Shown: one piece after another, positions 4,268 through 44,651 of the stretch | Numbering within the stretch: the first letter of the stretch is position 1 | Layout: the number at the start of each line of letters is the position of its first letter | Source: Isoetes taiwanensis | Taxonomy: Eukaryota > Streptophyta > Lycopodiopsida > Isoetales > Isoetaceae | Assembly (NCBI GenBank): GCA_021234155.1 | Contig: JAJEKV010000002.1 | Span: 27,459,299-27,523,298, forward strand | DNA: 64,000 bases | Direction: 5' to 3' | Position numbers and translations under genes: made by a program | The notes under the pieces: model-generated | Told to the model about the DNA's origin: nothing | The model's input: only the letters and a program-made list of their open reading frames with translations | Databases searched by the model: none

Positions 4268-5872
4268 ATGCCATGTCACCACTTGGGGTGCCTAGGTGGC
4301 ATGCTTGAGACTAGGTGGCATGCCTGAGCCACCTTGGCATGTTGGAGCCTGCATGGCATGTTGGAGCCACCTTGGCATGTTTGAGCCTAGGTGGCATGTT
4401 TGAGCCACCTTGGCATGTTGGAGCCCACGTGGCATTATGGAGTCCACGTGACATGTTTGAGCCACCTTGGCATGTTGGAGCCTAGGTGGCATGTTTGAGC
4501 CCACCTTGGCATGTTTGAGCCACCTGGCATGTTTGAGCCTGGGTGGCATGTTGGAGCCTAGATGGCATGTTTGAGCCACCTAGGAATGTTGGAGCCTAGG
4601 TGGCATGTTGGAGCCAACGTGGCATATTTGAGCCACCTTGGCAAGTTGGAGCATAGGTGGTATGTTGGAGCCAGCGTGGCATGTTTGAGCACGTTGGAGC
4701 CTAGGTGGCATGTTTGAGCCATTTTGTCATGTTCGGCCTAGGTGGCATGTTTGAGCCACCTTGGCATGTTTGAGCCTAGGTGGCATGTTGGAGCCACCTT
4801 GGCATGTGGGACCCACCTTGGCATGTTTGAGCCTAGGTGGCATGTTTGAGCCACCTTGGCATGTTGGAGCCCACGTGGCATGTTTGAGCCACCTTGGCAT
4901 GTTTGAGCACGTTGGAGCCTAGGTGGCATGTTTGAGCCACCTTGGCATGTTGGAGCCACCTTGGCATGTTGGAGCCTAGGTGGCATGTTGGAGACCACGT
5001 GGCATGTTTGAGCCACCTTGCCATGTTAGAGCCTAGGTGGCATGTTGGAGCCTGTGTGGCATGCTTGAGCCACCTTGGCATGTTGGAGCCCACGTGGCAT
5101 ATTTGAGCCACCTTGGCAAGTTGGAGCATAGTTGTCATGTTAGAGCCCTCGTGGCATGTTTGAGCATGTTGGAGCCTTGTTGTCATTTTGGAGCCACCTT
5201 GGCACGTGGCATGTTGGAGCCCACGTGGCATGTTTGAGCCTAGGTGGCAGGTTAGAGCCACGGTGGCATGTTGGAGCCTAGGTGGCATGTTTGAGCCAAC
5301 TTGGCATATTTAAGCCTAGGTGGCATGTTGTGAGCCACCTTGGCATGTTGGAGGCTAGGTGGCATGGTGGAGCCCACGTGGCATGTTTGAGCCACCTTGG
5401 CATGTTTGAGCCTAGGTGGCATGTTGGAGCCTAGGTGGCATGTTTGAGCCCATCTTGGCATGTTTGAGCCACCTGGCATGTTTGAGCCTAGGTGGCATGT
5501 TGGGAGCCTAGGTGGCATGTTTGAGCCACCTTGGCATGTTTGAGCCTAGGTGGCATGTTGGAGCCACCTTGGCATGTTGGAGCCAAAGTGAGCCCATGGC
5601 ATGTTTGAGCCTATGTGGCATGTTTGAGCCACCTAGGAATGTTGGAGCCTAGGTGGCATGTTGGAGCCCACGTGGCATATTTGAGCCACCTTGGCAAGTT
5701 GGAGCATAGGTGGCATGTTGGAGCCTGCGTGGCATGTTTGAGCACGTTGGAGCCTAGGTGACATGTTTAAGCCATTTTGTCATGTTGGAGCCTAGGTGGC
5801 ATGTTGGAGCCACCTTGGCATGTTTGAGCCTAGGTGGCATGTTAGAGCCACCTTGGCATGTTGGTGCCCACG
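4268..5872 (-). repeat. Minisatellite, same family, inverted orientation
   Basis: Monomers read GGCATGTTGGAGCCTAGGT and GGCATGTTTGAGCCACCTT, the reverse complements of the left-hand monomers. The array is about twice as long as the left one and shows higher-order repetition: segments containing AAGTTGGAGCATAGGTGG and GAGCACGTTGGAGCCTAGG recur near 4630-4730, 5110-5170 and 5690-5760. Long apparent ORFs here are periodic artefacts. Confidence 0.95.
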
Positions 5873-5924
5873 TTATGCAAAAATAGGTGTTAAGTAATTG
5901 AAGTAGTTGAAGTAACTTGTGTTA

Positions 5925-6475
5925 CATGGAATACTAGTATAAGAACATGTGATCGTGCACGTGCATCACATGTAGCAAATCAAGTACTCTGTCCTACCAC
6001 TATAAAGACCCGTGATATGGAAGGATAGGACATGTAGAGGATCAAGTACTCTTTCCTACTTCTATAAAGACATGTGAGAATAGAAGTATTACACATGTCG
6101 TAATTCATGTATTCTTTCCTACAATGCCTTAGCAAATAAAGTACTCTGTCCTACTACTATAAAGACATGTGACATGGAAGCATATGACATGTAGAGAATC
6201 AAGTATTCTTTCCGACTTCTATAAAGACATGTGACAATAGAAGTATTACACATGTCGTAATTCATGTATTCTTTCCTACAATGCCTTAGCAAATAAAGTA
6301 CTCTGTCCTACTACTATAAAGACATGTGAATGGAAGTATAGGACATGTAGAGAATCAAATATTCTTTCCTACATCTATAAAGACATGTGACAATAGAATT
6401 ATTAGACATGTAGAAATTCAAGTACTCTTTCCTACAGTGGATTGTATTATAAAATGACATGTCACAATAGAAGAA
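5925..6475 (+). repeat. Tandem repeat built from TATAAAGACATGTGA units
   Basis: A short module (TACTCTNTCCTAC...CTATAAAGACATGTGACA...GGACATGTAGAGAATCAAG) recurs about every 60-80 bp. A larger unit recurs about every 157 bp: CCTTAGCAAATAAAGTACTC is seen near 6127 and again near 6284. The copies are diverged. No coding potential is visible. Confidence 0.85.
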
Positions 6476-8869: not shown

Positions 8870-9751
8870 CTAACCCGGGTGTTGCCTTTTGCACAGGCCG
8901 AGGTCTTTGTAATGCTGCCAGGCTTATGCTTGTTGTAGTGTTGTAGGCTTATGCTGGCTGTAGTGCCACCAGGCTTATCCTGGCTGTGTTGAAGAGGCAC
9001 CGTGTGTGCTGGAATAAGCCATTCTTTCTATGGATAAGCTTATGCTTATCTACCTGGATATTTGTAAGTGCTGGTGAGGTGGGCGAAAGATATTGGTATG
9101 GGACAATAATCCTACGCCTCCCGACAGCCCAGTGAAAGCAGAGTATCCATTGTGGAGCGATGCTCCACTGTTTCAGTATCTGGGTGATACTGGGGTGGGC
9201 ACAGAAAGTGCTACCCAAGGGAGTCTTATGCAGGGCATGATATTAGATGAGCGTGGCTTATCTAAATAAGAACGAGGGGCTCTTGTGAGGTGAAGCTTGT
9301 CACTGGTATGGGACAGTGGCATGCGGAACCAACAGTCGAGTAGCCTGCGTCCTTATAATGCCTGCAGTTTCTCCCTTACACTGGATCCACTAGCGCGGGG
9401 GTTCTAGACGACGTATTGTCTAGATATGGCGGGGTGTGTCTGCTTGGCAGAAACTATGGTGCGTGTGGTGGATTCCATATGTGTGTGCTTACCGTTGTCA
9501 GTCATTGCTTCGTGTTGACACTATCGGATAACTGTTATGCATGTTACTAACACGTGGAAGCTTGTGCAGGCTCTTTGATAGCTGGCGGAGCGTACGTGTG
9601 CATTTAGTTATCTTGTGTTGTCATCTTGTTATCTGTATACGTGGTTTTCATGTATATAGCCTCATGGGAGGCAGTACTTGTTCTGTGTACTCTGATGGTT
9701 TGATGTGAATACAAATCGAAATTTTTGGTACTAAAATTTTGGTTCGTAACA
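8870..9751 (+). mobile_element. 5' LTR of chromovirus element 1, truncated at its start
   Basis: This sequence recurs at about 41213-41998 and, after an insertion, at 44554-44651. Shared landmarks are CCTTTTGCACAGGCCGAGG, CTATGGATAAGCTTATGC and GGTGATACTGGGGTGGGCAC. The end is GGTTCGTAACA, followed by the primer-binding site. The 3' LTR carries about 850 bp more between its polypurine tract and the point where homology begins, and I do not see that part here. The left LTR therefore appears 5'-truncated at the junction with the LINE fragment. Confidence 0.85.
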
Positions 9752-9752
9752 G

Positions 9753-9796: not shown

Positions 9797-11485
9797 ATGG
9801 AGCACGGCGAGACTAGTGCAGGCACACATATTGTAGCAGGGCAGGTGACTCCTATGGAGGAGGAACCTGATGTACGAGGGCTAGCTGCTCGCGTACAGGA
9901 AACCCAGAAGAACCTGGAGATCATGCAGACGAAGTGGGGCGAGGACTTGCTGGGTGTGCAGTAGAGCCTCAAGGCTGTATTGGATACTCAGACTGCTATG
10001 AGGACTGTATTGGAGACCCTTGCTGGCACGGATGGTCTAGGGAAGTCTGCGGAGAAGGGGAAGTCTCCGGCAGTAGTGGTGGTGGAATCCGATGTACCTG
10101 GAGCTAGTGCTGCTGTGGAGCAGACACTGAAGAGTTCCGGATTGAGCAAGGAGGACATCCGCAGTCTCGAGCGCACAAAGATCTCGGATTGGGATGGGAA
10201 AGGCACTGTTGAGGAGGCGATGGCTTGGATTGACAAGCTTGAGACCTTTTTTGAGGCTACCAATAAAGGTGATAAGGCGCGATTGTTTATTGCGCAGATG
10301 CGGCTGAAATCAGACGCCTATAGTTGATGGAATGGCCCCACCATGAAGAAAGAGGTGAATACCTGGTCTGATTTCAGGAAATACTTTATTGGGGAGTATG
10401 CACCTCAGCATGATGCTCGTGATGCGCTTGAGATGTTGCGGTACTGTAAGCAGACAGATTCTCTCAGTGTTTATATCATTAAGGTACGGGGTTATATCCA
10501 CAGGGTTGGAGACTTTTTCGAGGCTCGGCAGGTTGATTTCTTTCTAGGTGGTCTATCCAGTGTTGCTCTCAAGAAGCAGATAATCGGGTTGAAGCCCGAG
10601 GATTTTGAGAGAGCAACGATGTTGGCTCGTCAGCTTGGGGAAGAGGATAAGTCCTTCAAGAGGACGTCTCGGAAGTTCTCGAAGAAGAAAAACAGGTTTT
10701 TCAAGAAGAAAAAGTCTGAAAAGTCTGAGCAGCCTAAGTCTAAGTCTGCAGGTGGAGAGTCCAAGAAGCGTAAGGCAGACTCTAAGTCCGGTGGTCCCAG
10801 GAAGGGGATTTTCTGCTATAGGTGTGGGGAGCCTGGGCACATTAGTCGTGAATGCTCTCAGCCACAGAACAAGAAAGGTGATAACAAGAAAGCAAACGTG
10901 ACTAAAAAGGCTGAGGAAGTATTGGAATCTAAGACGGTTTCAGCCATTGCCCTGGATAAGCCCGCAAGCAAGGACATCATGGATATGTTTGCTGGACGGG
11001 TTATTAGATTCTTGGGCAGAATCATGGGCCGAAACGTTATTGTGTTATTGGATTGTGGCTCTTCTGACATGTTTATATCTTCTAAGTTGGTGGAAGAACT
11101 GCACCTACCTTGTGTAAAGACTAATAAGTACAAGGTAGATGGGCCTTTTGTGAACGATTCTCAGGTGGAGGATCGTAAAGCTGTTGGGGTGCCCTTGTGT
11201 ATTCAAGGATACCAGGAAAAGCTTGATTTTGACCTCTTGGATGTTGGCCGGTATGATGTGGTGCTGGGGATAACATGGTTGCAGTGGGTTAAGCCTACTG
11301 CAATAGATTGGAACACTCACCAGGTGATGCTGAAGCACGATGGACGGGAGATCTATCTGCAAGGGAGTCCTTTGACGGGAGCTTCCAAGATCGTGTCGTC
11401 GCTTCAGGTCAAGAAACTGGTACGTAAATCTTCCAATCAATGTTTTCTTCTATTTATTGATGAATGTTATCCTGCTTTTGAGTGC
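9797..11485 (+). pseudogene. Element 1 gag-protease, interrupted
   Basis: A Ty3/gypsy Gag and aspartic protease in one frame starting at ATG 9797. In-frame stops are TAG 9962-9964 and TGA 10325-10327; the latter falls at the AxxWW-type Gag motif, where a Trp codon would be expected. Gag homology continues through WSDFRKYFIGEYAPQ and the RQVDFFLGGL segment, then a Lys/Ser-rich basic stretch and one zinc knuckle CYRCGEPGHISREC (10813-10854). The protease shows LLDCGSSDMFIS (Asp codon at 11051); the usual D-T/S-G triad is D-C-G here. The frame is cut at 11485 by insertion of element 2, and pol resumes at 37537. Gag packages element RNA and the protease matures the polyprotein; with two stops and the split this copy is inactive. 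Confidence 0.9.
11481..11485 (+). repeat. Target-site duplication AGTGC, left
   Basis: AGTGC lies directly before the TGTGACG start of element 2. The same five bases follow its CGTCACA end at 37537-37541. Five-base duplications are typical of gypsy integrases. Joining the flanks restores the element 1 reading frame through the site. Confidence 0.93.
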
Positions 11486-13128
11486 TGTGACGTTCCAGGG
11501 GAATATACGCCATAAATACGTATATTCCTGGACCCGTCACCATACAAGTCTACCTAGGTAGCCTTGTATGCCTTGGATAAGTGGCAAGGGTGCACATCTA
11601 AGTTAAGTGTTTAACTTAGATAACCTTAGGATAAGGCCCATTTCCACATAGCCTTATCCTATTGGGCAACCGCCACACGGCCTCGTCCTAGTGGTGCCAC
11701 ATGGCATCCCATGTGGACCCACACCTATATTGGCTCTAACCCTAACCCTAGACCCTTTTCCCTGACCTAGCACCTGAACTCTCATCCACGTGCCCGAAAC
11801 CCCGTTTCGAGCACCGTTCGTCATAGTCTAGCCTGGAGCAGTAGCCCCTGGAAGGTGTGTATGATCGTAGAGGGAGCAAGCCTTCGACCCACGTCAAGGA
11901 GCATGGAGACGCCAGGGATGGGAGGAAACGCTTCTGGAGGAGGTAGGTTGAGTAGGGTTCATGTTAGTTCATCTGGAAGTTAGCACTCCAGATGGGTTAG
12001 TATTTCGTGTCTAGAGTAGAGCCACCCTAGAACCATTGTTGAACATCTTGAACCCTAATCAAGGAACCCTAACTGTTAGTTAGATATGTATGATTAGGTT
12101 AAGATGTTCATATGATATTGATCATGATGTGATGTATGTGATGTTGGTTGATCATGTTGCTCCTCTTGTATTGGGAAGGGGGGGTAGAGACCTAGGGCCA
12201 TATGTAGTATGCTCCTAGTGTAGATCCCTTAGTTCCTATTAGTTGCGGCCTGTGCATAGGAACCCACCGGGCTATGGAAGCCATGATGTGACTCAGCACC
12301 ACACAACGGGGCTAGAGGCAAGATGGAGGGTGGATCCCTGCCGAGTGGGGGCTTCGGGGGATCCCACAGTGGGCTAGGCTTATGGTCGGTCACTTCGTGT
12401 GGGCCGAGCATGGGTCCAACACCTCCTGGGGCAATGGTGTCGCCCTGCCTCTCAAGAGCTGCAAGTGTCAGCTTGGCTCTTGTTTTGGGGGGTTCGGTCG
12501 GGTACGAATCGTGTGTCGTCACGATTCTCTAGCCGCCCATGAAGCCTCTAGACCCCGGGAAGGGGAGATGCAACCCTTCCTACCTCGTCGGACCAGGGAG
12601 ATGCAACCTGGAGTAGTCCCGAGGGGTGATGCCCTGGGATTGCGTATCCGGAAGGTTAGAGTCATGCCACAGCTTGATCTAGCTCATCTGCAAAGTATGC
12701 ACAGGAGGGGCGGATGGAGTGGTCAACCCTAGCCATTGTCTTATGCCAGCCCCGCCATTGTTATAACTCGGTCTGTTCTATCTTGAGGCCTATCCAGTCA
12801 GTCGACTACCCTATGTGTCAGAGCCACGGGTAGGAGCTCTCATGTTTTACGGCATATGATTATGTTCTTTGTATCTATGGATATGCGGTTGAGCTACCCT
12901 TCGAGGTAGCATATTGTATTGTATTGCTAGTTCTGACGTGTTCATGCTTCCGCTGTGATAGAAGCCCATAGGGGAAGGGCGCGCAAGACACCTTTGTGTC
13001 CCCTTTCCCGCACCATGGAGGTTCCAGAGTGTGGGACAGACGGAGGGCCTGTGCGGTTGTTGAGCCGGATGGGGGATTTCCTGCCGAGTGTACGGCCGGG
13101 CGCCGTATATTTAGCAGGGAGCGTCACA
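11486..13128 (+). repeat. 5' LTR of element 2 (1643 bp)
   Basis: Nearly the same as 35920-37536 over its whole length. Differences include a roughly 20-bp segment near 12430-12455 (AATGGTGTCGCCCTGCCTCT) missing from the 3' copy, and a 4-bp indel near 12100. It has the perfect terminal inversion TGTGACG/CGTCACA. A short CCCTAACCCTA run near 11740 is internal and is not a telomere. Short open frames in it are not conserved genes. Confidence 0.95.
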
Positions 13129-13129
13129 A

Positions 13130-13141
13130 TGGTATCAGAGC
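13130..13141 (+). other. Primer-binding site of element 2 (initiator Met-tRNA)
   Basis: TGGTATCAGAGC begins two bases after the LTR end (13128). 13142-13658 is a leader with no gene that I can recognise. It is AT-rich toward its end, with ATTAATAATAC-type words near 13500-13560. Confidence 0.92.
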
Positions 13142-13658: not shown

Positions 13659-14772
13659 ATGGCTCGAACCAAGCAGACAGTTAGGAAGTTTGGGGAGAGG
13701 CCTACACTCTCGATGGCGCAGGTAGCAGCAGGTCGCCATGTCAAGAAGATTCCGCACACCTTCGACCGAAGCCGGGCGAAGAGAAGTTCTCCTCCAGCAG
13801 TGATGACACCTTCCACACCATGGAAGAGGAGGCGCCTAGCAGCAGCAGTTCTTCGTCAGCGGGCACCCAGAGAACCGGCGAGTCCCGTCACTTTGGACCT
13901 TCATCAGACACGGAGGTGGAGCAGCAGGAAGAGCAGCCCCAGCATCAGACCGAGGAGGCGGGCCCTTCGGCACCAAAGAAGAAGGGCAAGGAGAAGGTTG
14001 CAGAGTGGCTGGAGGACAAGGCAGCACGAAAGAAGAGAGAGAGGGAGCTGCTTGAGAGGGAGAGGCGAACGAAGAGAAGGAACGGCGGGCCTCGCCGGAC
14101 CATCGTGATTGAGGAGCCTCCCCGACGCGAAGAGGAGGAGGTGGAAGAAGGAGGAGGCGACGAGGAGAGGATGAAGGGGACGCCGAAGTCGTCGGGGAAA
14201 CGTCAAACCCCGACGCAAGACCACCTTACCCGAAGTGGCCCAAGCCACCTAAGGTGGTCAAGAAGCAGAAGGCGGGCGAGCGACCGTTCGCTTTGAAGGA
14301 GGAGCGCCTCTTCAGACGCCGCCTCAAGGCGTACGAAGAATACCTCCGTCGTTGGACGAGGTATAACGACTGGTACTGCCGCCAAAACGTCCAACGCTAC
14401 ATGGAGGGAGGTCGACCAGCAAAGAACCAGCCCAAGCCGCCGCCGCCACGACCGGAGAAGCCAAAGAAGGTCCACCACGGACCAAATTCTAGGCATGCCT
14501 GAGTTTTTCGGGAGATTAAGCACTTTCAACAGTGCACTAATCTCCTGATTAGGAAGGCACCTTTCGAGCGGCTCATGCGAGAGGTGATGCAGGAGTTCGT
14601 CACCGACTATAGAGTGACGTCGCTCACAACAAGGGTGTTGCAGGTAGCTGCGGAGGCCGAGCTCACCCAGCTCTTCGAGGAAGGAAACCTCTACGCAATC
14701 CATGCGAAGAGGGTAACACTGATGCCCAAGGATCTACACTTGGCGCGCCGGATCCGCAAGGAGTACCCTTGA
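13659..14772 (+). pseudogene. Histone H3-like gene inside element 2 (H3 tail, charged linker, H3 fold)
   Basis: Read across three frames, this is one H3-related gene of about 371 codons; canonical H3 has about 135. Frame A from ATG 13659 begins MARTKQTVRK, the H3 amino tail with K4 and K9 kept and A7 changed to V. Residues 25-35 (GRHVKKIPHTF) resemble the H3 K36/K37 region. The frame then changes near 13761-13800. The linker is rich in Ser, Glu, Lys and Arg, with PKKKGKEK as a possible nuclear signal and a likely coiled coil. A second frame change lies near 14150-14165. From 14509 [16 protein letters not shown] starts a full histone fold: alpha-N/alpha-1, [18 protein letters not shown] (alpha-2), [13 protein letters not shown] (loop 2) and LARRIR (alpha-3), ending at TGA 14770-14772. 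By hand against remembered H3, about 37 of the last 61 residues agree and loop 1 has the H3 length, not the longer CenH3 one. K56 is Q and K79 is V. TGA at 14500-14502 lies just before the fold. The copy is broken; its role in the element is unknown. Confidence 0.88.
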
Positions 14773-14980: not shown

Positions 14981-15069
14981 GCCAAATCCCCGAAACCGGG
15001 TCGGACCGCGCCGAAGCCACCTGCGTTCGCGACGCAGAGGCGTCTGGCGCGCACCAACCCGATTTCGCC
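14981..15069 (+). repeat. 90-bp GC-rich repeat, copy 1, with inverted ends
   Basis: The copy begins with CGAAACCGGGTCGG and ends with AACCCGATTTCGCC, so its ends are inverted with one difference. Its middle contains the hairpin CTGCGTTCGCGACGCAG (6-bp stem) and GGCGTCTGGCGCGCACC. The second copy is at 15172-15261. It could be a small foldback element or a duplicated regulatory module. Confidence 0.8.
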
Positions 15070-15171
15070 GATCGGACACCATTTGATGTCCATTTTGCAT
15101 GCGGAAAGTTTCTAGTTAGATTAGAATCATGCCAAATAGCCATCTCCAAACTTCCAGAAATTCAAATCTGA

Positions 15172-15261
15172 GCCAAAAATTCCCGAAATCGGGTCGGACC
15201 GCGCCAAACCCACCTGCGTTTGCGACGCAGAGGCGTCTGGCGCGCACCAACCCGGTTTCGC
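15172..15261 (+). repeat. 90-bp GC-rich repeat, copy 2, with inverted ends
   Basis: The copy begins CGAAATCGGGTCGG and ends AACCCGGTTTCGCC. It keeps the hairpin as CTGCGTTTGCGACGCAG and the GGCGTCTGGCGCGCACC core. It lies about 175 bp upstream of the TATA box of the 507-codon ORF. Confidence 0.8.
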
Positions 15262-15433
15262 CCAATTTTGCCCAATTTGACCAAATTTTATTCAACAAAC
15301 TGCCATGTAGTGTTTCTTGCTTTGTTTTGCTTAGATTTGCACTTCATGGTGCCTTAATTGGACACCCATAGCCATAGAACAGAAGTTTTTCCCATCAAGA
15401 ACCCTTGTGCACGGAACCCGAGGCATCCCTAGT

Positions 15434-15552: not shown

Positions 15553-17076
15553 ATGGCGCCCTCAAACTTTGTGAGATGGTATGATGCTGCCAATCACATC
15601 CGTGATTTTCCTGCTGACCAAGCCTTCCATGTCTTCGATCACCTCTTTGATCTCCATGCCACATTGACTAGAACCCCCTATTACACTGATATCATTTGCC
15701 AGTATGACCAGCAGATCCTACCCTGGGAAGTTAGCTTGCCACCTAGGGGTGGGAAATGGGTTTCCTTAGACTCTCTTACCCAAGCCATAGGTGGGGGATC
15801 CAGGGGCAAGAGTAGGCTGTGGGATAGGACCAGAAACATGCCAGACTACATGACCTGTAAGCATCATAGGCATAGATACCTCTCAGCCCAAGCAGACTTA
15901 GCTTTGTTCATGCAGTACAAGGCAGTCAACCAACCAGGGGAGCCGTCAATTCAACCTTTGGATCTGGCACCTCTCGACACTCGGAGGGCACAGATAGACA
16001 TCCACGAGATCCAGGCTACGGAGTACGAATACTACGGCTCCACATCAGGAACACCCATGTTGCAGATTGAGCAGGATTATGAAGAGCAAGAGGAGGAGAA
16101 CCCAAGTTGGGAAATGAGAGAGGCAAGAAGGATGGAGAGGCGTATAGCACGACAAGAAGAAGTATTAAGGCGAGATTTCGAACCGCCTGTTGGTATCACG
16201 GCCCTGACCCCAGTCATCATCGACGGCGAGGAGTACATACTCGCCACCGACATCCTCAACCTTCCCTATTGCCAAGAAGAAGGTCTCAGGATCGATGAGC
16301 TCCTAGGCCTAGTTGCACAAGAGCAAGGCAGTGACTTCATCGACTACTCCTATCAGGAAATTCCAAGGGAAGTAGCCGAGCGACACTCCTACGCGGGGGA
16401 AACCATGTCAGACATTCAAGCTTATCAGCAGATAAGGCAGATGTATCAGCATCAGGAACCCATCATTCCAGAAGAAGAATTCCAGCAGATTCAAAGCAGG
16501 TTGTACAAGCCGGGAAGAGGTCCAAGCTCCAGCCGACCAATGCGCTCCAGGAGCATGCGTGAAGCCTCTAGCAGCATCAACTTGGAGAACGCAACAACAA
16601 TGTGGAGGGATCACGAAGATCTCATCGCACTAGACATCTTCGGCGAGGCAGCTCAGAGGAAAGGTACGGGAACCGGGGGCACAGGGAAAGGCAAGGCACT
16701 CAGATACTATCTTCCGGCCCTCAGTCAAGGGCAGATGATAGTTTTCCATAAAGAGTTCAGCCCAAGAGGAGAAGAGTCGGTGGCGCTACTTATAGCACTC
16801 TCAGGATTCGGACAACATGCCAGGATAGATTATGTTGCAGATCATGTTATCCTCTTCAAGCGATCCGTAGTTCTCCATGCCCTCGACTTCGCCAGGGGCC
16901 ACCTCAGGGATGCACACTTGTCAGTAGTGGCGGCAACTGCACCAGAACTTCCGGCACCACAGATGGCAAGAGCATTAGAGGGAGGATCGGCGGCAAGAAT
17001 TCTGCAGAATGTCGGCAAGGGGCTACGATTGAAGAATGTCAAGAACTTCTTCAAGTCTATGAGGGGGCATCGATGA
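15553..17076 (+). CDS. 507-aa protein of unknown function carried by element 2
   Basis: A single undamaged frame from ATG 15553 to TGA 17074-17076, the longest intact ORF in a window where nearly every other frame is broken. I do not recognise the family. Residues 1-120 are mixed alpha/beta-like and rich in aromatics and His (starts MAPSNFVRWYDAANHIRDF; a KHHRHRYLSAQADLALF segment follows). Residues about 165-230 are acidic and coiled-coil-like (EEQEEENPSWEMREARRME). Residues about 330-375 are Ser/Arg/Gly-rich and likely disordered. The C-terminal 130 residues look folded, and the tail is basic (GKGLRLKNVKNFFKSMRGHR). There is no signal peptide, membrane segment, zinc knuckle or RT motif. It lies between the H3-like gene and gag. 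The LINE inserted just beyond its stop (17080) cut its 3' untranslated region. It may be an accessory retroelement protein or a captured host gene. Confidence 0.75.
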   Translation: MAPSNFVRWYDAANHIRDFPADQAFHVFDHLFDLHATLTRTPYYTDIICQYDQQILPWEVSLPPRGGKWVSLDSLTQAIGGGSRGKSRLWDRTRNMPDYMTCKHHRHRYLSAQADLALFMQYKAVNQPGEPSIQPLDLAPLDTRRAQIDIHEIQATEYEYYGSTSGTPMLQIEQDYEEQEEENPSWEMREARRMERRIARQEEVLRRDFEPPVGITALTPVIIDGEEYILATDILNLPYCQEEGLRIDELLGLVAQEQGSDFIDYSYQEIPREVAERHSYAGETMSDIQAYQQIRQMYQHQEPIIPEEEFQQIQSRLYKPGRGPSSSRPMRSRSMREASSSINLENATTMWRDHEDLIALDIFGEAAQRKGTGTGGTGKGKALRYYLPALSQGQMIVFHKEFSPRGEESVALLIALSGFGQHARIDYVADHVILFKRSVVLHALDFARGHLRDAHLSVVAATAPELPAPQMARALEGGSAARILQNVGKGLRLKNVKNFFKSMRGHR

Positions 17077-17079
17077 GGG

Positions 17080-17088
17080 AAAATTTGC
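17080..17088 (+). repeat. LINE target-site duplication, left copy
   Basis: AAAATTTGC lies directly before the antisense poly-T of the LINE and recurs at 24799-24807 beyond its 5' end. The match may extend into the following TTT. This sets the limits of the insertion. Confidence 0.9.
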
Positions 17089-17429
17089 TTTTTTTTTTTT
17101 TTTGAGAGAGTAAGAGTGAATTTTTCCATTAATCAAGAAACACAGTACATAGTTCTGCTTTGATCAGCAGATTAAAGCATAACAAAGATCTTTATACATA
17201 AACGTCCATCAAAATGTTGTGATGTGCAGTCTGAAAAATATGCAGCAGAAATCAGATCCTGGGATGAGCTGAATTGATCAAAGGATAGCTGATAATTAGA
17301 GATAATCTTCCAAAAATGAGATAGTCTTCAAAAATGTGTAGAAATCACGACCCCAACCAGTAGTTATTGTTAAAACCTGAAAGTAACATCAACCAAAATT
17401 CTGCTAGATTAGGAAATACCATTGAGCAA

Positions 17430-20400
17430 TTAATGTCTTAGCGGGGGTTGGATAGGAAGCCGATACAAAGATGGGGCTACTGGTCCGCGAAGTGAGAGGG
17501 AGTCAAGCTTAGAGTTGAAGAAGGCATAGAAAGAGTCAGCAGATCCAAAGGTGTAACTGCCAGTAATCTGCTCAGCAATGCTACCCACGCAAGAGAGGTC
17601 AGATACAATCAAACAAAGCAAGGAACCAAACAAATCAGCCAACAGTCTGTGAGTATAGTACTGCTCTCTGAATCTTGAGAATTGTTCCTCAGTCATGTAT
17701 CTGTGGTACATGGAGAGAAAATCAAACATAGTATAGACTTGCACCACCTCTCTGCAGAACATTCTTGCAATATTCGTGTCCAAATTTTCTTCATTTTCAG
17801 AGAGTTTGTTGAAGAACAGTTTTAGGTCAAGATCAACATCCCTTTTGAGTAGATTGTCATCCATTTCACCCATGCTCTTCTTGCATTTCTTCAAGTAGGC
17901 TAACATCATCACCAAAAGCAGAATTAGAATTGATAACATTGAAGTTAGCTACAAATAAATCAAAAGACCCCCTGAAATGACCAACCAAATCCCATTTTCT
18001 GTCATATTTATCAGATTGCTTCCTTTTGTGTGCTGTAGCAGTAGACTGAATATCAAGTTGAAAATGCAATTTGATCCAAAAAATAGAGAAATTCTTTTTA
18101 CCATAAACTACTCTATTTCTTGCCTTCCAGATATTCCAAAGAGCAATAAACATGATAGTGTTAGCAAAAGTGCAACCATTTTGGACATAAGACAGCAAAT
18201 TTCCGAGAGATCCCATTAGGGAAAAAACTGACCCAACTTATCATCAAACCAAGACCAAAAAGAATTAAGCTTAGGGCAGATAAAGATGTGCTCAAGATCT
18301 TCCTCCAGACTGCAGTGAAGCTGGCACAAGGCAGATATGTTGTCATTCCTGAGGGAGAGAAGTTGTAAATTAGGAATGCTTTTATTAGCTAACAACCAAA
18401 TAAAGAAGTTGACCTTGGGGAAGCAATAAGAGTTCCAAACATCATGAAATAGAGATTTGGCCTCCTCCATAGTGATAGACCATTTGAGACCAGCTTTGGA
18501 AGGATTGTCAGAATTCCTAATAGCAGAATAGATTTGACTGACCTTATATAAACACTTACCTGCAATGCTCCAATTGGTTGCCTTGGGGACAATATTATTT
18601 AACCAAGTCTGAGGAAGGATCGACTTAATGTGCAGATAGATCTTTTTGTCACTAGAAGTGCCATGAACTAAGTTTTTCAGATTGGTCCAAGAGATGAGCT
18701 TATTATTCAGATATAGGTCACCTAGGAAAATAAGGCCATAATCAGACCATTTCTTATAAATTCTTGGGTGTCTCAAGGCAAGAGTCTTACTAGGATGATT
18801 CTTCAAAATTGGATTCCAAAAAATAGTCATTTGCAAGTTGAGATCTTGAGGATCATCATAAACATAGGCAGATTGTACTTTGTTCCAAGCCATAATGAAG
18901 TTTCTCATAAGAGGGGAAGTATTTGCACCAGCCTGGAGAACATTAAAACAGGAATCAGGTAAAATATGCTCAATTGTAGGATGGCCAACCAAGTGAGAGC
19001 AGAAGAGCCAGTATCTGATAAAATGAGAGGATGGACCAGCATTATTCGTGAGGGATTTCCATATGTATTTGTCAGCCAGAGCACAGGCTTGTAGATAAAG
19101 ATCCTTGCAGCCAAGACCACCATATTTTTTAGGCCTGGACACATAATTCCATCCAACAAGATGAGAGCCTTTCCAAATGAACTTTCTGATAATCTTTTCA
19201 ATCTCGGAATAGATTGACTTAGGGGCCACTAAAGCAGAGGAAAAATAGATGTGAGTGCTGGCCAGGACAGAGTTTGCAATAATAGATCTACCAGCAAAGG
19301 ACAATTCACCTCTGAAATTATTTAGTTTTTTCCTTATTCTGTCTATTCTGCCATAGGCCTTTAAGATTAGGATTAAGAGACAAAGGCATACCTAATAGAG
19401 TGGAGGCATGATGAGTATTGACAACCTTGAGATTAGCAAAGTTTGGCTGGATATTATCACCAATGATCACACATTTAGCCAAGTTTAGGTGGACCCCAGA
19501 AGCAGCAGAGAATTGATTGATAATGTCAAGAAAGAAATCAATGTTAGATATATCAGCATCTAAAAAGGCAAAAGTATCATCAGCATATTGAGAGAGAGTT
19601 AGGGACTCATCACTATTTGGCAGATTAAGACCTTTAATCATCCCAAGCTCCTTGAAATGAAGAACAGCCTTTGTAAGCATTTCAGCTACTATCAAGAATA
19701 AATAGGGGGCTTGTCTGACTCCTCTAGATAAGGGAAAGAATTGGGAGGGGAAGCCATTAATAATGACAGCAGAATGAGAGAAAGTATTCAAACCATGAAT
19801 TAGCAGCCTTAATTTAGGATGAAACCCAAATTTTGAGAGAGCAAGATCAAGAAAATCCCATCTCACTGTATCAAAGGCTCGCTTAAAATCCAGTTTAAGG
19901 AGCACACAATTTTGATTGGAGATGCTATTCCAATGAAGACCTTCCATAGCAGTGATGTAATTGTCCAATATAAATCTATTAGGAAGAAAAGCTGACTGAT
20001 AGAGAGATATGTTCTTCTGCAGAAATACTTTGATTCTATTTGCAATTATCTTGGCACAGATCTTATAAGAGGTATTGGTTAAAGAGATCGGCCTCCAATC
20101 TGAGAAAGTAGATGGATTGTCCACTTTAGGAATGAGGGAAATAAAACCAGCAGAGATTGAAGGATGTAAGAAATTGGCCTCCCAAAAACCTGAAACCATG
20201 GAAATGATATCATGTTTAAGAATATCCCAGAAGTGAACATAGAATTCACTAGGAAGACCATCAGGACCAGGGGATTTGCCTTTGCCAAAGGATCTGAGAA
20301 CCTTGAAAATCTCATCTTCTCCAGGGGGAGTCACAATAGAATCATCCATATTATCCATAGAAGATGGAATGATCACATCCAGCAAATCAAGAAATTTTCT

Positions 20401-21628
20401 TTCCTTGACAAGGTCAATTTGCTGAGCTGGAGTTTTGGAAAAAAGAGTGGCATAGTTCTCTTGGAAGAAAGACTTAATAAGCTTGGAGTCATTCAGGGAA
20501 ATTCCAGTGTCAGTCTGAACTTGAGTGATAGCATTTCTAAGCAGTCTGACTTTAGCCATTTTAAAGAAAAAACTGGAGCTGCCATAGTCCATGTCCTTAT
20601 TAAATTTAATCTTACATTTGATGGAAGAGCTTTTGGCCTCAATTTCCTCAACACTTTTTAGGTAATTTTCTAGAAGTTCCTCACCAATATGAAGGTTAAG
20701 ATTGTGAGGATCTTCTTGAAGGAGAGATCTAATATCCCTCATCTTGGCAAGCAATTGCTCTTTTTCATTGATTTTGGCCAAATGTTTGCTTTTAGACCAA
20801 CCTTTAATCCAACTCTTGACCTTCTTGATTTTGCCATAAAATCTTTTTCATTGATCACTGATTACCTTCATCAGGGATATTGAGATAGAAATCTTTGAAG
20901 TCTCTAACAAAGGAGTCATTCTCTAGAAGAGCACAGTTAAATTTGTAAGATACATTGCCATCCCTAGGTGTTTGATTCAATTGCTTAGTACATAAAAATT
21001 GAGGCTGATGGTCTGATATTATATTGCCTTCATCACTAGTGACATAGCAATTATCCCAAAGGGATGAGGTTGGACTACACACATAAAATCTGTCCAGGGT
21101 ACAGTAGACTCTTTTGTCACCTTTTTGCTTATTAGACCAAGTAAAAGAAGCAGTAGAGGAAGGCACATAAACCAATGAAGTGTCAGAGATAAAAGAATCC
21201 CAATTAGATCTCTCTAAAGTAGACATATTGAGATGGTTGCCTAGTTTCATATTCCAGGAGGGAGTGTTATTAAAATCCCCCCTATAATCCAGTCCAGGAT
21301 AGGATTAGCATGCATCCAAGTTTTGATTTCAGACCAAAGAACTCTTTCTTTTGGGTTGGTGGAGGCATAAACATTTATAACTCCAAAAGTGGAATCTTGT
21401 AACTGAAATATGACAGCTTGCCACATCTTAGAGGGGGAGTTATGGAAAGAGAGATGTTTCAGATTTTTCCATATCATGATAATACCTCCACTTCGAGATT
21501 TCAAATTTGGGAAGCTTAACTTCCTGCAGCAGAATTATATCAGAGTTATAATTCCTAAGTTGGGAGATGGCACGTCTCCTTTTGATTGGGCCTTTAATAC
21601 CCCTAACATTCCAGGAGATGATCTTCAT
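17430..21628 (-). pseudogene. LINE ORF2: endonuclease, reverse transcriptase, zf-RVT, frameshifted
   Basis: Start at ATG 21628 (MKIISWNVRGIKGP), the usual start of the APE-type endonuclease, with LLQEVK and a later SDHQP segment. A frame change lies in the G-run near 21280, where the GGDFN motif would be. Reverse transcriptase occupies about 19318-20781, with GKSPGPDGLPSEFY, RPISLTN, KLDFKRAFDTVRW and the catalytic YADD at 19576-19587. zf-RVT follows at about 18216-19304 (KKYGGLGCKDL; CQLHCSLEEDLEHIFICPKL). The frame changes again near 18216 and 17900. The last part (17430-17880) encodes about 150 residues past the usual LINE C-terminus (NLLKRDVDLDLKLFFNKL...); I do not recognise it. ORF2 performs target-primed reverse transcription. 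This copy cannot make a full-length protein. Confidence 0.9.
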
Positions 21629-21671
21629 GGTCAGCTTAAAAAGAACAGAAGAAAAGAAGGAAGGAAAAAGA

Positions 21672-23876
21672 TTAATATCTTTTCTTTTTCCCTTTCCCTT
21701 TTCTAACTTTACTTCTAGTGTTGGCAGCAGGGGTATTATGCAAATTTATGAGTTTAGATAGGGGAGTATCATACTTTTTGGCTTTAGCCAATTTTTCCTC
21801 TCGAGCAAAGGTATGTCTGGAAGTATCTTCCTTATGAGAACACTCAGCTAGGTATTTATCTCCCTCCCAATTTTCCTTATCAATTTCCAAATCACTGACA
21901 TCAGAAGCCCCACCAGGAATGAATTCAAACATTTCATTTATGCTAGCAGGAAGATCACAATTAATATGAGAAGTCTCCAAATGATTATGAGAAGGAGGAG
22001 AGAGAACCCGACCAGTAGTTCAAAGAGCCACCTCATGAGTAACCATTTTGCAGAAGTCCTCTTTCTTGTGAAGTTCTCCATAATTATCCTGATCATGTTC
22101 ATAATTCACCAGCTCCCTTTCTGGAGTATCTTGCAAAACATGGCATACTTGCTGTGATTGAGAGCAAAGACCCTCTTGCAAGGAAGCTAATTGCTCAAAG
22201 AATATTATTACCCTATGAGGGATGGTGGAGGGAGAAAGGGATCAGAGGCTGGTGAGAGATCAATAAAGGGAGATTGGGAATGGTTATTTGGATCATTGTA
22301 AGAATTGCCCAATAGTACATCCAAATCCACCTCAGAATTAAGGTTAGCCAATACCTGAAAATGATTGGTGTTACCATTTAGATTTTTGATGCTGTCCCTT
22401 GAGTCTTCAGTATTGCATAAGACCATGGTCCTCTCCTTTAATTTAGAATGATTTTTATCACTTGCAGAAGCAGGAATTGGAGCAGGCACCATTTCAACCA
22501 AAGTATCCTTATGGTCAATTACCTCACAAAGGAGCTGATCATTGGTCAGAGAGACCTTTTCTAAGACCTTTCCATGACTGTCTTTCTTGATTAATGAACT
22601 ACTCTTACCCCTGTTAGAGTTCAAAAATTGTGAACTCTTACTGTTGATGTTTAGGTTTTTGGCATCCGAAATGATTTTGTTCAAAGTATCATGCAGACTG
22701 TTGACCTTGTTGATGCCATTAGCAGATGGCCCAGCATTGTAGAGCACCTTGCTGGAACCCCTTTTCAGAAGTTCCATATTGAGCTTGATTTCTAACAGGA
22801 GGTGCATCCCCAGTCATATCATTTTGAGACTGGGAGTCTTTCAGATTTTTCTTTCTCTGGATCCTTTTATAACTACCATTGACTTTGGTCCACTGAAAGT
22901 CTTTGTCTTTGGATAAAATGCTTGAAGGGCCAATGTCCCTATTCCTATTCAGAGAGTCAAAATTTGAAACTGGTGCACAAGGTAATTGCATTTTGTTCTG
23001 TCCCTTGACTGCCCTGTTGCTGTTTTCCTTGGGATTGACTTGTTGTCTGACTTGCTGTTTGACTTGCTGATTGACTTCCATATTCTCAGTCTGATTGATG
23101 TCACAATTCATATTCATTTCTGTGGAAGGTGAATTATCCTTGCAAGAATCATACCAGAAGTGCCTGGCCCTACAGTTTTGACAATGAGGAGGCAGACCAG
23201 CCCATCTAAGAGAGAGGGAGGCTTTTTGACCAAAAACATCAAGGAAAGGAATTTGCAGGGGGACATCTTTGGATATATCAATTTGGACAAAAGATTTGGG
23301 AGGTCTATATGGCGAAAATGCAGTGCATATATAAGATCCAATGGAGCCAAAAAGCAGTTTGAGACAGTCCTCATTCCAGTAGATAGGATTCAAACCATGA
23401 AGCGTGGTGGAGGCTACACAAAGATTATCCAAATTAGCAACTTCAAATTTGGGATCCCACTTTAGAAAGGTGAGTTGAAAGGACTCCAGAGTCAAAGGAC
23501 CTCGATTTAGTAAAAGGTTGGCAGATCTTTTGTTACCACATTCAATCATAACATATGGAGATTGTAACCAATAAACAGCATTGATAAGAATTTCTTTGTG
23601 AAGGTTCAAGCAAAAGGCCCAGAGTTTATCAAGTTTAATACCATGCTTATTGATTTTGACAATAACAGCCGAGTCATGAAAGGAAATCAACTTTGCATGA
23701 ACAGAAGGAAGGTCCAAAGAAATACCTTTAAAAGTAATCAAGCTTTTCATGGCTTTGAAAGCGGGATTGAAGGATCGAATTGTTCCGGAGAGCATTTGTG
23801 AAGAATTTGTTCAGGGAATTTTGCTGGTCCTACCGTTTATCACCATAGGGGAGAGGAACTTGTCGGGCGGATCCAT
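21672..23876 (-). pseudogene. LINE ORF1: DUF4283-like and zinc-knuckle protein, frameshifted
   Basis: The likely start is ATG 23876 (MDPPDKFLSP), with a stop (TGA) 22 codons later; an open frame then runs from 23795. The first 200 residues resemble the DUF4283 region of plant LINE and retroelement proteins (KLDKLWAFCLNLHKEILINA; GLPPHCQNCRARHFWYDSC, a short CCHC-like knuckle). A frame change lies near 22720-22800, and a Ser/Asn-rich middle runs to 22208. A further open piece at 21672-21980 ends in a basic tail (RSKVRKGKGKKKRY). ORF1 proteins bind LINE RNA. 23877-24798 is the LINE 5' untranslated region, with no clear gene. Confidence 0.8.
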
Positions 23877-24798
23877 GCATGGTAATTGGCCTCTATAGTC
23901 GGGGGTCCTTGGATAAATTATCCCAAATGGCACTTTGGAAGACAAAGGATCCATAGAAGACTGTTCAATTAAGGAGTTAGCAAAATCACCAAAGAAAATG
24001 ACATTTTTTGGGTTTTCTTGAAAGGACCTTAGTTGCTTGAGAAGATCGGAGCGGTCGGAGGGCTCAAGATCGGCAAATGCATGAAGGATAGAAAGAAATT
24101 TAGGGTAATTTTGTTTTTAAGAGCCATCTATAAAGAACCGGTGGAAACTACAAAAGCAGATTGAACATGTCTTGAAAATAGCGGGAGGGAACAACAAGGG
24201 GCAAAAGAGAACAGGGGAGACGAAAGCGAATTAAAAGTTCTGAGAAGGTGGAAAGCCACATTCAAAGCCAAAAACTAAGGGGAACTACACTAAAGGATGA
24301 ATCATTGCTCGGAATACACCTTAACCACAATTTTCGAATCACTCCACCCACAATGCACATGAAAGATTCCAGTAGCAGAGATTTCTTTTTTCCCCACGAA
24401 TTCCTGAAGCCAAGAGTCCACAATTTCTACCTCAAATTCCACTGAGCTTGGCACAAACGAGTATTCAGCAACGAAAAGATCTTCTGGAAAATACTGTTCC
24501 GAGACCAAAGAATTCCAGAGAGCCACTGGAGATCCTTTCAAAAAGCCACAGGTTAATCTTGCATTATGTTTGATAATTGCAAAAATTCTGGTATCCATCT
24601 GTAGGGAAAATTATGGGGAATCATGAGAAAGGCTAGCCCCTACAAGGCTGGCAATCTTAATCCAGTAATTGCTTCAGATAGGAGCACAGATTAGCACAAC
24701 ATATCAAGAAATTAGTTTGAATCTAATAAGACAAAAGATTCAAGAAAAATGGCGCACAGTGCTGACGTGTACATCTCCCTCTTTTCTTTTTTTTCACC

Positions 24799-25125
24799 AA
24801 AATTTGCTTTCTAGATTAATTAAATTGTATTGAAAATCCTCTCTTAAGTTGTTATCATGTAATTCATGAAATGTATTTCTATATATATTAATTAATGTCC
24901 CACCATGATCTTGACTTGTAAGTGGAATTTTCATATGATTTCTTTTGTATCTAACAAGAATTCAAATATGAATAAGCATGATTAAAGTGTAACTTAAATA
25001 ACAAATATTGATGATTAATCCTTGCAACAAGGAACACCGGCTCAGGTTCTCAAGGCCAGGGCCGACATCACCAGTGGGTACCTAGAAACCTATTCGGACG
25101 CGATCAAGATGACAACAACGAGGAA
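24799..25125 (+). other. Element 2 spacer between the LINE and gag
   Basis: Begins with the right LINE target duplication (24799-24807), which continues the 3' region of the 507-codon ORF. 24830-25020 is AT-rich. From about 25030 the gag frame is open (GSGSQGQGRHHQW...), so gag could begin upstream of the ATG chosen at 25126. Confidence 0.6.
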
Positions 25126-26387
25126 ATGACGCCGGAAGCAATCAACGCAAGGCTCGTCCAGATGAGGAATCAAATGCATCAGCTGATCCACTGGGCCACC
25201 CCATTGATGAATGCCCAAGAATATGCACCTGCTCCACCTCCACCTCCACCACTACCTTAGCAAGGCATCGAGGAAGGTCCACAGCCGGAGGGGCAAGACA
25301 ATCAGGGAAATGTCAGAGACAGAAAGAGGAAAAGGAGAAACAGAAGAACTCCAACACCACCTAGCTCCAGTTCATCAGACACTTCAGACAGCCAAGACAG
25401 TTCTAGCTCAGAAAGTGAGTCTGATACTTCACAGGTAAGAGCCAGGGCAAGGAAGGCAGATGACTATCAAAAGAAAGTTGACAGTGCTATGAGCAATGTG
25501 TGGAAGACTAGGAAGTTGGGTCAGTTCTCAGGGAAGGACAGGTCAGGTATGGAGGCAGAAGCCTGGCTTGACGAGATGGAGGAGTTTGGCAACTCTTATG
25601 GCATGAAGGACAAGGATATAGGGAAGGTTGCTACATCAAACTTGATAGGAGCAGCTAGAATTTGGTGGAAAGGCTACGCAAAGTCCAACAAGCTCAAAAG
25701 GAACAGTTGCAGATTCAAGACCTTCAGCAAGGCCTTTCGCAGACATTATGTGCCTAGGTCATATACTAGCAGGCAGATCCAGCAGTTCTACAGATTGAAC
25801 CAGGGTACCTTGTCAGTAGCAAAGTATACAGAGGAATTCATGCGACTCAGGCTACATGCTCCCGGAGTCTCGGAAAGGCAAGTGGTTGAAACTTACATTG
25901 AGGGATTGAACAGCAATATCAAAAGGCTAGTCCGAGCAATCAACCCAAAGTCAGTGCCAGAAGCCGAGGATAAAGCCATAAGTTTGGAAGAAGCTCCACC
26001 AACGCCAGGGGAGAAACAGTCGGCCTTCAAAGGAAAGTCAACGGGGCAGTACCAATGGCAGTACCAGAGTAAGCAGTCAGCAACTACGCCATCAGGAGGC
26101 CAGCAGCAATGAAGAGCTCAGGGTAAGAACTTTGGGAACCGTAAGCCGCAGAATGCATCAGGGGGCAGCGTGCTAAAGCGTCTTCTAGACAGTCTGACGA
26201 AGGAGAAGAGGCAGGAGTGTATCGAGAAGAAGCTATGTTTAAGGTGCTTCCAGCCAGGGCACCGAACACATGATTGCCCATTCGTCATGCAGGCAGCTTT
26301 GGCAGAGCTTGGGGATTGGGATTCACTGACAGAAGCAGATGAAGACGACGACCAGCATGAGGCCCAGGACTTCATAGATGGTGAGTG
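25126..26387 (+). pseudogene. Element 2 gag, two stops, cut by the copia element
   Basis: One frame from ATG 25126 with TAG at 25258-25260 and TGA at 26110-26112, both otherwise bridged by homologous reading. It has a Pro-rich start, a Ser/Asp-rich stretch (SSSSSDTSDSQDSSSSE), then the retrotransposon Gag core (AEAWLDEMEEF; GAARIWWKGYAKS; FRRHYVPRSY; GTLSVAKYTEEFMRL) and one zinc knuckle CLRCFQPGHRTHDC at about 26235-26276. The frame is interrupted at 26387/26388 by a copia element and continues as protease at 31704. Gag forms the particle and binds RNA. Confidence 0.88.
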
Positions 26388-26868
26388 TGTTAGAAAATGT
26401 GGTATCATCACATGTGTGGAATTCAAGCTGTACATTTAAAGTACATTGATATACATTAGATACATTGATGTACATTAGAGTACATTGGAAGTACATATGT
26501 ACATTGATTTACATTAGAGTACATTGGAAGTACATATGTACTTCTCTGGCCTTTGGCCTTCTGTTTCCGGCTGTTGGCCCTTCAGTGCCATACGGAACCT
26601 TAATGTATAAATAGTGGAATTCTGTGCAATGGAGGAAAAGGGGGACAGAGACCAAGGTCGAGATTGACTGGTAATGAAGAATTCATCTTGATAGTTTCCT
26701 TTCAGTATTGATATTGTTGAGCTCGAGTATGAGTTAACGATTTAAACATGTCATTGAATCTATTTGCTCATACAATAACTAGTGGTTGTGTATCTAGTGG
26801 TTGATCATTTTATCTTGATCATTGATTGAATACTTGCAAGTGTTGATATAGTGATACATAAATTAACA
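26388..26868 (+). repeat. Copia 5' LTR (481 bp)
   Basis: Contains short internal repeats (GTACATTGATNTACATTAGA, GGAAGTACATATGTAC) that may be regulatory, and a TATA-like ATGTATAAATAG near 26604. It appears the same as 31218-31698 base for base. Confidence 0.95.
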
Positions 26869-26870
26869 TT

Positions 26871-26882
26871 TGGTATCAGAGC
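26871..26882 (+). other. Copia primer-binding site (initiator Met-tRNA)
   Basis: TGGTATCAGAGC lies two bases after the LTR end. Confidence 0.92.
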
Positions 26883-26905
26883 CACCTTGCAGTTGACATT
26901 AAATC

Positions 26906-31100: not shown

Positions 31101-31200
31101 CTAAAGGACTCCATCAAGCAAAAGTTTACACAGTTCAAGAACAGGATGAATATTCAATAGAAATTGCAAACAACAGGTACTTGAAACAATCTGCTGACAC
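28125..31200 (+). pseudogene. Copia integrase, reverse transcriptase and RNase H, heavily frameshifted
   Basis: 28125-28715: GAG-pre-integrase and the H2C2 zinc finger (WHNRLAHTHCNN... CEGCLLGK), then LVHTDICGPL and SFIDDYS of the integrase core. 28660-28887: SDRGGEF, and PQWNGVAKRKNRT, where the catalytic Glu (usual AERKNRT) is Lys because codon 28861-28863 is AAA. 29048-29653: integrase tail and linker. 29700-30318: reverse transcriptase in pieces, with YVDD at 30199-30210. 30687-31279: copia RNase H (SYSDADWAGDLSMRRSTSGHVIF; FTDSQSCMAIVRNP; TKHIELSMHFIRD). At least six frame changes or stops separate the pieces. The copy cannot encode active pol. Confidence 0.9.
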
Positions 31201-31207
31201 ATGTGAT

Positions 31208-31217
31208 GAAGGAGGAA
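31208..31217 (+). other. Copia polypurine tract
   Basis: GAAGGAGGAA lies directly before the TGTTAG start of the 3' LTR; it is the primer for plus-strand synthesis. Confidence 0.8.
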
Positions 31218-31698
31218 TGTTAGAAAATGTGGTATCATCACATGTGTGGAATTCAAGCTGTACATTTAAAGTACATTGATATACATTAGATACATTGATG
31301 TACATTAGAGTACATTGGAAGTACATATGTACATTGATTTACATTAGAGTACATTGGAAGTACATATGTACTTCTCTGGCCTTTGGCCTTCTGTTTCCGG
31401 CTGTTGGCCCTTCAGTGCCATACGGAACCTTAATGTATAAATAGTGGAATTCTGTGCAATGGAGGAAAAGGGGGACAGAGACCAAGGTCGAGATTGACTG
31501 GTAATGAAGAATTCATCTTGATAGTTTCCTTTCAGTATTGATATTGTTGAGCTCGAGTATGAGTTAACGATTTAAACATGTCATTGAATCTATTTGCTCA
31601 TACAATAACTAGTGGTTGTGTATCTAGTGGTTGATCATTTTATCTTGATCATTGATTGAATACTTGCAAGTGTTGATATAGTGATACATAAATTAACA
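31218..31698 (+). repeat. Copia 3' LTR (481 bp)
   Basis: Same length and, as far as I can see, same sequence as 26388-26868. It ends TTAACA and is followed by GAATG, the partner of GAGTG on the left. Confidence 0.95.
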
Positions 31699-32391: not shown

Positions 32392-32400
32392 CCATATAGA

Positions 32401-35908: not shown

Positions 35909-35919
35909 AGGGGGGAGAA
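35909..35919 (+). other. Element 2 polypurine tract
   Basis: AAGGGGGGAGAA directly precedes the TGTGACG start of the 3' LTR. Confidence 0.88.
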
Positions 35920-44553: not shown

Positions 44554-44651
44554 ATATAGCCTCGTGGGAGGCAGTACTTGTTCTATGTACTCTGATGGTT
44601 TGATGTGAATACAAATCGAAATTTTTGGTACTAAAATTTTGGTTCGTAACA
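44554..44651 (+). repeat. Element 1 3' LTR, last part
   Basis: Aligns with 9654-9751 and ends GGTTCGTAACA. GGCGA follows. No matching left duplication can be checked because the left LTR start is missing. Confidence 0.9.

Follow-up and report, generated by a model that had tools for sequence, protein, structure and literature searches.

Giant viruses encode histones. The H4 of bracoviruses is the histone of a DNA virus (reviewed in PMC9145170), and retrotransposons go unmentioned in the main text of that review. Among mobile elements, the nearest precedent that we found is a hAT DNA transposon of the fungus Pyrenophora tritici-repentis, which carries an H3-like gene, H3L, and is present in 26 very similar, recently spread copies; the authors of that study ask whether altered chromatin aided transposons in spreading (PMC3538342). 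Long terminal repeat (LTR) retrotransposons of plants contain conserved additional open reading frames (ORFs), shared by all copies of a family or by most of them, and the main text of the review on this subject does not use the word histone (PMC7264820). Orchid Ty3/gypsy elements retained an ORF for an AlkB-type N6-methyladenosine (m6A) demethylase through their diversification (PMC9289625). For chromoviruses with group II chromodomains, the partners or the mechanism are described as unknown, and the relevant parts of the papers mention no such element with a histone gene (PMC6317226; PMC12786077). No LTR retrotransposon with a histone gene was found in the open literature that we searched, a scope outside which most subscription papers fall. 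Here, we describe an H3-like gene in a chromovirus, i.e., a Ty3/gypsy LTR retrotransposon with an integrase chromodomain, of Isoetes taiwanensis. The window, by which we mean the whole stretch of DNA analyzed, comprises 64,000 nucleotides (assembly GCA_021234155.1, contig JAJEKV010000002.1, positions 27,459,299 to 27,523,298, forward strand).

An H3-like gene in many copies of a chromovirus

A first-pass annotation of the window had proposed an H3-like gene in which an H3 tail and an H3 fold are separated by a long charged linker of about 235 residues. The C-terminal 90 residues are indeed a clear histone: the translation of 14506-14769 matches the Pfam Histone profile over positions 40-122 (E=7.5e-28), and solved H3 chains align with it free of gaps over 85 residues (E about 1e-27). 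Against the H3 of the host, this fold scores 103 bits, while 442 of 1000 codon shuffles gave any match at all, the best with 30 bits. The tail reads MARTKQTVRK...GRHVKKIPHTF, and the linker was found to span about 240 codons, with third-position G+C content switching frame at about 13790 and about 14220. The residues named in the annotation were confirmed as well, K4 and K9 being present, K56 replaced by Q and K79 by V. The same is true of the reported damage, i.e., two frame changes and one stop: in alignments with each of four intact copies found elsewhere in the genome, there are two gaps, one on either side, of a length not divisible by three, and the window copy has a single in-frame stop immediately ahead of the fold. 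No second H3-like stretch was detected in the window by tblastn with host H3.

The gene, hereafter ORF1, belongs to a complete LTR retrotransposon, for which the LTRs, target-site duplication, primer-binding site (PBS), purine tract, gag, reverse transcriptase, integrase and chromodomain were all found (Table 1), and which is a chromovirus. The annotation had located ORF1 between the PBS and gag. It does lie between the two, with one correction on the place of gag: the next ORF (15553-17076) is not gag, and the Retrotrans_gag domain follows at 25261-26109, past a nested long interspersed nuclear element (LINE).

The assembly (1.66 Gb, 1110 contigs) was searched with the window fold, and further copies were sampled via queries with H3, ORF2 and a gene of family C (see below); all genome counts are lower bounds, as only the best candidates were scored. 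The best 150 of 8379 loose candidates, window copy included, are all 92-100% identical in the fold and constitute family A; a stop interrupts the fold in 3 of these 150. The exact PBS lies upstream in 24 of the 30 family A loci that were read (window copy included), and both PBS and ATG could be located in 20 of these 30, where the leader between them measures 529-585 nt. Other copies thus carry the gene in the same place, as the annotation had proposed to check, and the intact relatives that it called for exist: a frame open from MARTKQTA to the stop (369-370 residues) is found in 4 of the 30 loci, and a fifth locus, L021, is open partly in another frame. Matches to ORF2 and then to gag follow in all of the five further family A copies that were traced downstream, the gag match of L010 being short. 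The presence of family A copies on many contigs, together with their synonymous differences, speaks against an artefact of the assembly. The broken state of the window copy would agree with an H3 pseudogene that was inserted once and is passively carried along, yet there are at least 149 further copies, with intact frames, the same position and signs of purifying selection. The finding of the gene in other copies of the element refutes a one-off insertion, to which we assign practically no probability.

ORF1 is not restricted to family A. With H3 as query, 15 matches at 96-98% identity represent host-type H3 genes, eight of which were fetched and encode identical proteins, and at least 135 further H3-like matches are found at 71-86%, many of them in open frames of 400-567 codons. 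Seventeen of these 135 were read (L039-L055), picked for long open frames or list position and not at random, and all are of the element type; some of the remaining matches with short open frames may be relatives of host H3. We assign L039-L043, L046 and L047-L055 to family B, L045 to family C and L044 to family D. In all eight of the loci L039-L046, the N-terminal part that precedes the H3 fold is a different one; seven contain a relative of the window LTR (68-80%), five the exact PBS, six a related gag match and six a tblastn match to the window ORF2. The N-terminal part of B and C comprises about 300 residues and is unlike an H3 tail, while that of D, whose start was not read, differs at least partly. 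The fold of four B/C/D genes scores 137-144 bits. For the gene of family C, the assembly holds at least 99 matches (query included), some of which are pieces of one copy.

The second accessory gene, ORF2, directly follows ORF1 and gave no match to gag. It matched no known domain or recognized fold in domain and fold searches, and one full-length relative, P0091 (34%, 501 residues, on a 2007-base contig), was found among the best 7998 candidates from 5.8 billion proteins. Within the genome, diverged relatives of ORF2 occur in families B, C and D; L044 aligns with it, L043 shows pieces of it by eye, and the ORF2 of family B has at least 91 matches (query included). ORF1 and ORF2 are both open in 6 of the 17 diverged loci (L048-L053). 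The spacing between them is 191-276 nt in 24 pairs, which were drawn from 38 of the 135 matches and chosen partly because ORF2 had been seen, so that they document existence and spacing and not frequency. As gag stands behind two or three ORFs (window, L006, L024, L039, L046), it could be translated only after splicing, by reinitiation or from a separate transcript.

A third ORF, of the YEERITDMVRRDDPGPP type, was observed between ORF2 and gag in families B and C (L039, 4340-4708; L041, 4337-4789, oriented; L045, 4347-4958). It was not in view in the window element, and the two examples tested had no Pfam match.

The comparison of synonymous and non-synonymous change between copies, which the annotation had suggested, reveals strong purifying selection on the fold. 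In family A (30 loci), the proportions of synonymous (pS) and non-synonymous (pN) differences in the fold are 0.41 and 0.016, with dN/dS 0.028; in the four intact genes, dN/dS is 0.12 in the tail, 0.17 in the linker and 0.04 in the fold. Twelve genes of family B gave 0.032 from KPHR to the end, 0.090 in the N-terminal 200 residues and 0.267 in the middle part, and ORF2 of this family gave 0.091 (8 genes). In the family B pair L039/L046, pN is 0.047 in the fold, 0.298 in the rest of ORF1, 0.187 in ORF2 and 0.263 in gag, at pS of 0.60, 0.76, 0.69 and 0.81, respectively; in this pair, the fold is more strongly constrained than either gag or ORF2. When the B/C/D folds are compared with host H3, pS is saturated (0.90-0.96) at a pN of about 0.10-0.11 (0.29 for family A). 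Synonymous saturation together with low pN implies that the gene has been maintained as a protein over a long time. The first-pass annotation could not have shown how many copies there are, that diverged families exist, that a second accessory gene is conserved or that purifying selection is strong.

Origin, conserved residues and possible roles

In a tree built from 88 columns, B, C and D form one group (support 99/84), which adjoins host H3 (100/89), and the source of the gene is, judging by this tree, probably the host lineage. Family A is a single group on a long branch; a clade of A and B/C/D is not rejected by the approximately unbiased (AU) test (p=0.26). Two independent captures by the same chromovirus clade, one leading to A and one to B/C/D, are to be considered. 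They would agree with the long branch and the H3 tail of A as opposed to the position of B/C/D beside host H3 and their different N-terminus, and with the few changes common to all families (positions 87, 107 and 135), the new residues at 87 being mostly unlike. Against them stand the equal position before a homologous ORF2 and a related gag, the P that A, B and C have at 135, and the AU result. One capture is favored because of the shared position, the homologous ORF2 and the related gag, and we regard two captures as a real possibility of lower probability. The fold itself says little on the number of captures, as 87, 107 and 135 are the only residues changed in every family.

A captured centromeric H3 (CenH3) was also weighed. 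The family A fold starts with H-F-Q and TNLLI, which we take to resemble the fold start of some CenH3s, but TNLLI is also found in many ordinary H3s. The annotation had invoked the canonical length of loop 1 against CenH3, and this argument holds, since neither the window gene nor families A-D in general have an insertion there. Moreover, CENH3 and two CENP-A-like rows stand apart from all other rows of the tree (90/90; this fork lies below the starred level, and the rows are long). A CenH3 origin is thus very improbable.

To describe the residue pattern, a position was called kept if it is retained in more than 90% of the copies in each of the four families, tabulated family by family. Positions at the H3-H3 interface and of DNA contacts were listed for this purpose, and position 53 could not be counted as kept, as host H3 has K where the list has R. 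By this measure, 47 of the 88 fold positions are kept in all four families. At the H3-H3 four-helix bundle, this is true of 12 of 13 listed positions, the exception being L103, which is M in the single D copy. Of the 20 listed DNA-contact positions, 12 are kept in A-D (including R49, R63, K64, R69, R72, R83 and R116), as are 9 of the 12 listed basic contacts. The retention of basic contacts, the charged linker of family A and the location of ORF1 directly after the PBS, i.e., as the first gene on the genomic RNA, are what would be expected if the product worked inside the retrotransposition cycle and packaged or compacted cDNA or RNA of the element, for example in the particle or in the pre-integration complex, via the basic surfaces of the fold. 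Packaging by charge alone would not need the 12 of 13 interface positions, and the fold is constrained far more tightly than the charged linker (dN/dS 0.03-0.04 vs. 0.17). We therefore consider a role of this kind unlikely.

Other positions have changed. Every family is altered at residues 87, 107 and 135, A-C also at 89, and A, B and D at 102; the replacements at 87, 107 and 135 partly differ, those at 87 between most families, and A, B and C all have P at 135. Residues 87 and 89 presumably fall in the stretch that decides chaperone choice in known H3 variants. Tails were found in 23 of 30 family A loci searched, and K4 and K9 are present in all 23; residue 10 is never Ser (F in 9, A in 7, Y in 5, P in 2), and the position of K14 is P in 23 of 23. 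The H3 tail is thus kept in part in family A; it is replaced in B and C, and family D, read without its start, probably has none either. The eight host H3 genes (L031-L038, one protein) combine E77 with Y41 and L90, which we assume to be an unusual set for plant H3; E77 and L90 are common to host H3 and most B/C/D folds, and 27 of 30 A copies have E77 as well. The altered residues 87, 89, 102 and 107, and a family A tail with K4 and K9 that lacks S10 and K14, would suit a dominant-negative or decoy histone, which binds H4, chaperones or H3-modifying enzymes and diverts them from silencing without stable incorporation. Since B and C, and probably D, lack the tail, a decoy that works through it cannot be what the families have in common, and a decoy would have no need to keep the DNA-contact arginines. 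Such a function is accordingly rather improbable.

Copies in the same place, diverged families and selection together indicate an accessory gene of the chromovirus lineage that is kept by selection. Our preferred reading, which we hold to be probable but by no means certain, is that ORF1 is an H3 gene captured and kept in this lineage, whose histone-fold product would act in chromatin via nucleosomes. An intact histone under selection suggests that these elements may act on host chromatin with a histone of their own. The predicted product would consist of the histone fold and an N-terminal part peculiar to the element (in A, an H3 tail and the linker; in B and C, about 300 other residues; in D, at least partly other residues). 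It would pair with host H4 and, given the changes at 87 and 107 in all families, might enter nucleosomes by an altered deposition route. Once incorporated, it could anchor or mark chromatin to the benefit of the element: new copies may be silenced less, or the product, perhaps together with ORF2, may be the platform on which the integration complex of the element lands. As B and C, and probably D, lack an H3 tail, a function shared by all families should be sought in the fold together with the N-terminal part joined to it, and not in K4 and K9 of the tail.

Several points weigh against this reading. The window copy cannot give rise to the full protein. The family A set consists of the best protein-scoring copies, which biases pN down, although neutral copies at a pS of 0.4 would hardly have a pN of 0.016 despite this bias. 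Families C and D are each known from one read locus (C also from the search with at least 99 matches). The listed interface and contact positions are mildly enriched among the kept ones (24 of 32, P=0.018, a pooled count in which family B makes up 15 of the 17 B/C/D rows). Finally, A and B/C/D may go back to a single capture or to two (AU p=0.26 for one clade).

By eye, the chromodomain of the window element resembles those of group II: the W is kept, and neither the first nor the last cage site has an aromatic residue. A more elaborate and speculative version of the nucleosome hypothesis, which we judge improbable, would have the ORF1 product, guided by its 87-107 surface and helped by ORF2, replace H3 at target sites or new copies and dock the element's own group II-type chromodomain. 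If true, the element would be both writer and reader of its own chromatin and would not depend on the H3K9 marks of the host. That the element's own H3 is the partner of its chromodomain is a conjecture.

The carrier element and its surroundings

The coordinates of the carrier and of the two elements nested in it are compiled in Table 1. Over 1617 aligned bases, its two LTRs show 20 substitutions (Kimura two-parameter distance 0.0125). At a substitution rate of about 7e-9 per site and year, this translates into an age of roughly one million years. The PBS is, we assume, of the initiator-Met type. The nested copia element probably inserted very recently, as its two LTRs are identical.

Table 1. 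Features of the carrier chromovirus and its nested insertions (positions in the window).
Feature	Position	Strand	Remarks
Target-site duplication AGTGC, 5' side	11481-11485
5' LTR (TGTGACG...CGTCACA)	11486-13128	+
Primer-binding site TGGTATCAGAGC	13130-13141	+
H3-like accessory gene (ORF1)	13659-14772	+	ATG at 13659, final stop codon ends at 14772; broken here by one stop and by two indels that shift the frame
H3-like N-terminal tail, 38 codons	13659-13772	+	K4 and K9 in all 23 family A tails found
Charged linker, about 240 codons	13773-14502	+	Coding composition in shifting frames
Complete H3 histone fold	14506-14769	+	Pfam PF00125 E=7.5e-28; PDB H3 chains E about 1e-27
Direct repeat pair, 86 bp, GC-rich, 93%	14984-15262 (14984-15069, 15177-15262)	+	Spacer between H3 gene and ORF2
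ORF2, second accessory gene, 507 residues	15553-17076	+	Open in window copy
Nested LINE, foreign to carrier	17087-24804 (ends approximate)	-	RVT_1, zf-RVT; poly-T and repeated AAATTTGCTTT at the two ends
gag	25261-26112	+	Retrotrans_gag E=1.6e-17, domain 25261-26109
Nested copia element, foreign to carrier	26388-31698	+	Two identical 481-bp LTRs
Reverse transcriptase	32362-33315	+	RVT_1 E=6.9e-41
Integrase core	33888-34544	+	rve E=6.4e-11
Integrase C-terminus with chromodomain	34499-35089	+	Chromo E=1.3e-11, SH3_Tf2-1 E=7.6e-22
Polypurine tract	35908-35919	+
3' LTR	35920-37536	+
Target-site duplication AGTGC, 3' side	37537-37541

The carrier itself is inserted in an outer chromovirus, recognized by LTR pieces (8872-9752, 41216-44652) and by matches to reverse transcriptase and chromodomain. 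This outer element gave no H3 match, and 575 nt lie between its PBS and the open frame of its gag. Its 3' LTR is split (41216-41998, 44554-44652), and inverted arms of 137 bases (41999-42454, 96%) lie beside the break. Elsewhere in the window, tandem arrays occupy 5015-5874 and 5973-6442, with 19-base steps and a 157-base unit repeated three times.

Significance and comparison with known systems

Retroelements are usually seen as targets of histone-based silencing; the chromovirus lineage described here preserves an H3-derived gene of its own, which makes it directly testable whether a mobile element can alter the nucleosome itself. To chromatin biochemistry, the families also offer diverged H3 variants from nature whose N-terminal parts are large and whose 87-107 surface is altered, and for chromodomains without a known partner (PMC6317226; PMC12786077) the element H3 is a candidate. 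For genome annotation, they serve as a warning, since many apparent H3 genes in such genomes can belong to transposons.

The DNA-virus histones likewise are core histones encoded by a parasite, the carriers in that case being DNA viruses (PMC9145170). The orchid Ty3/gypsy elements also contain an extra ORF of host type, which encodes an RNA demethylase and not a core histone (PMC9289625). Diverged families and a selection test are absent from the passages on the Pyrenophora hAT; the chromovirus has both, and new N-terminal parts in addition. The element of Pyrenophora is a DNA transposon with terminal inverted repeats and a hAT transposase, whereas that of the window is an LTR element with reverse transcriptase and integrase. 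What the two have in common is that a mobile element multiplies, in many copies, an H3-like gene and, along with it, an ORF whose function is unknown (PMC3538342).
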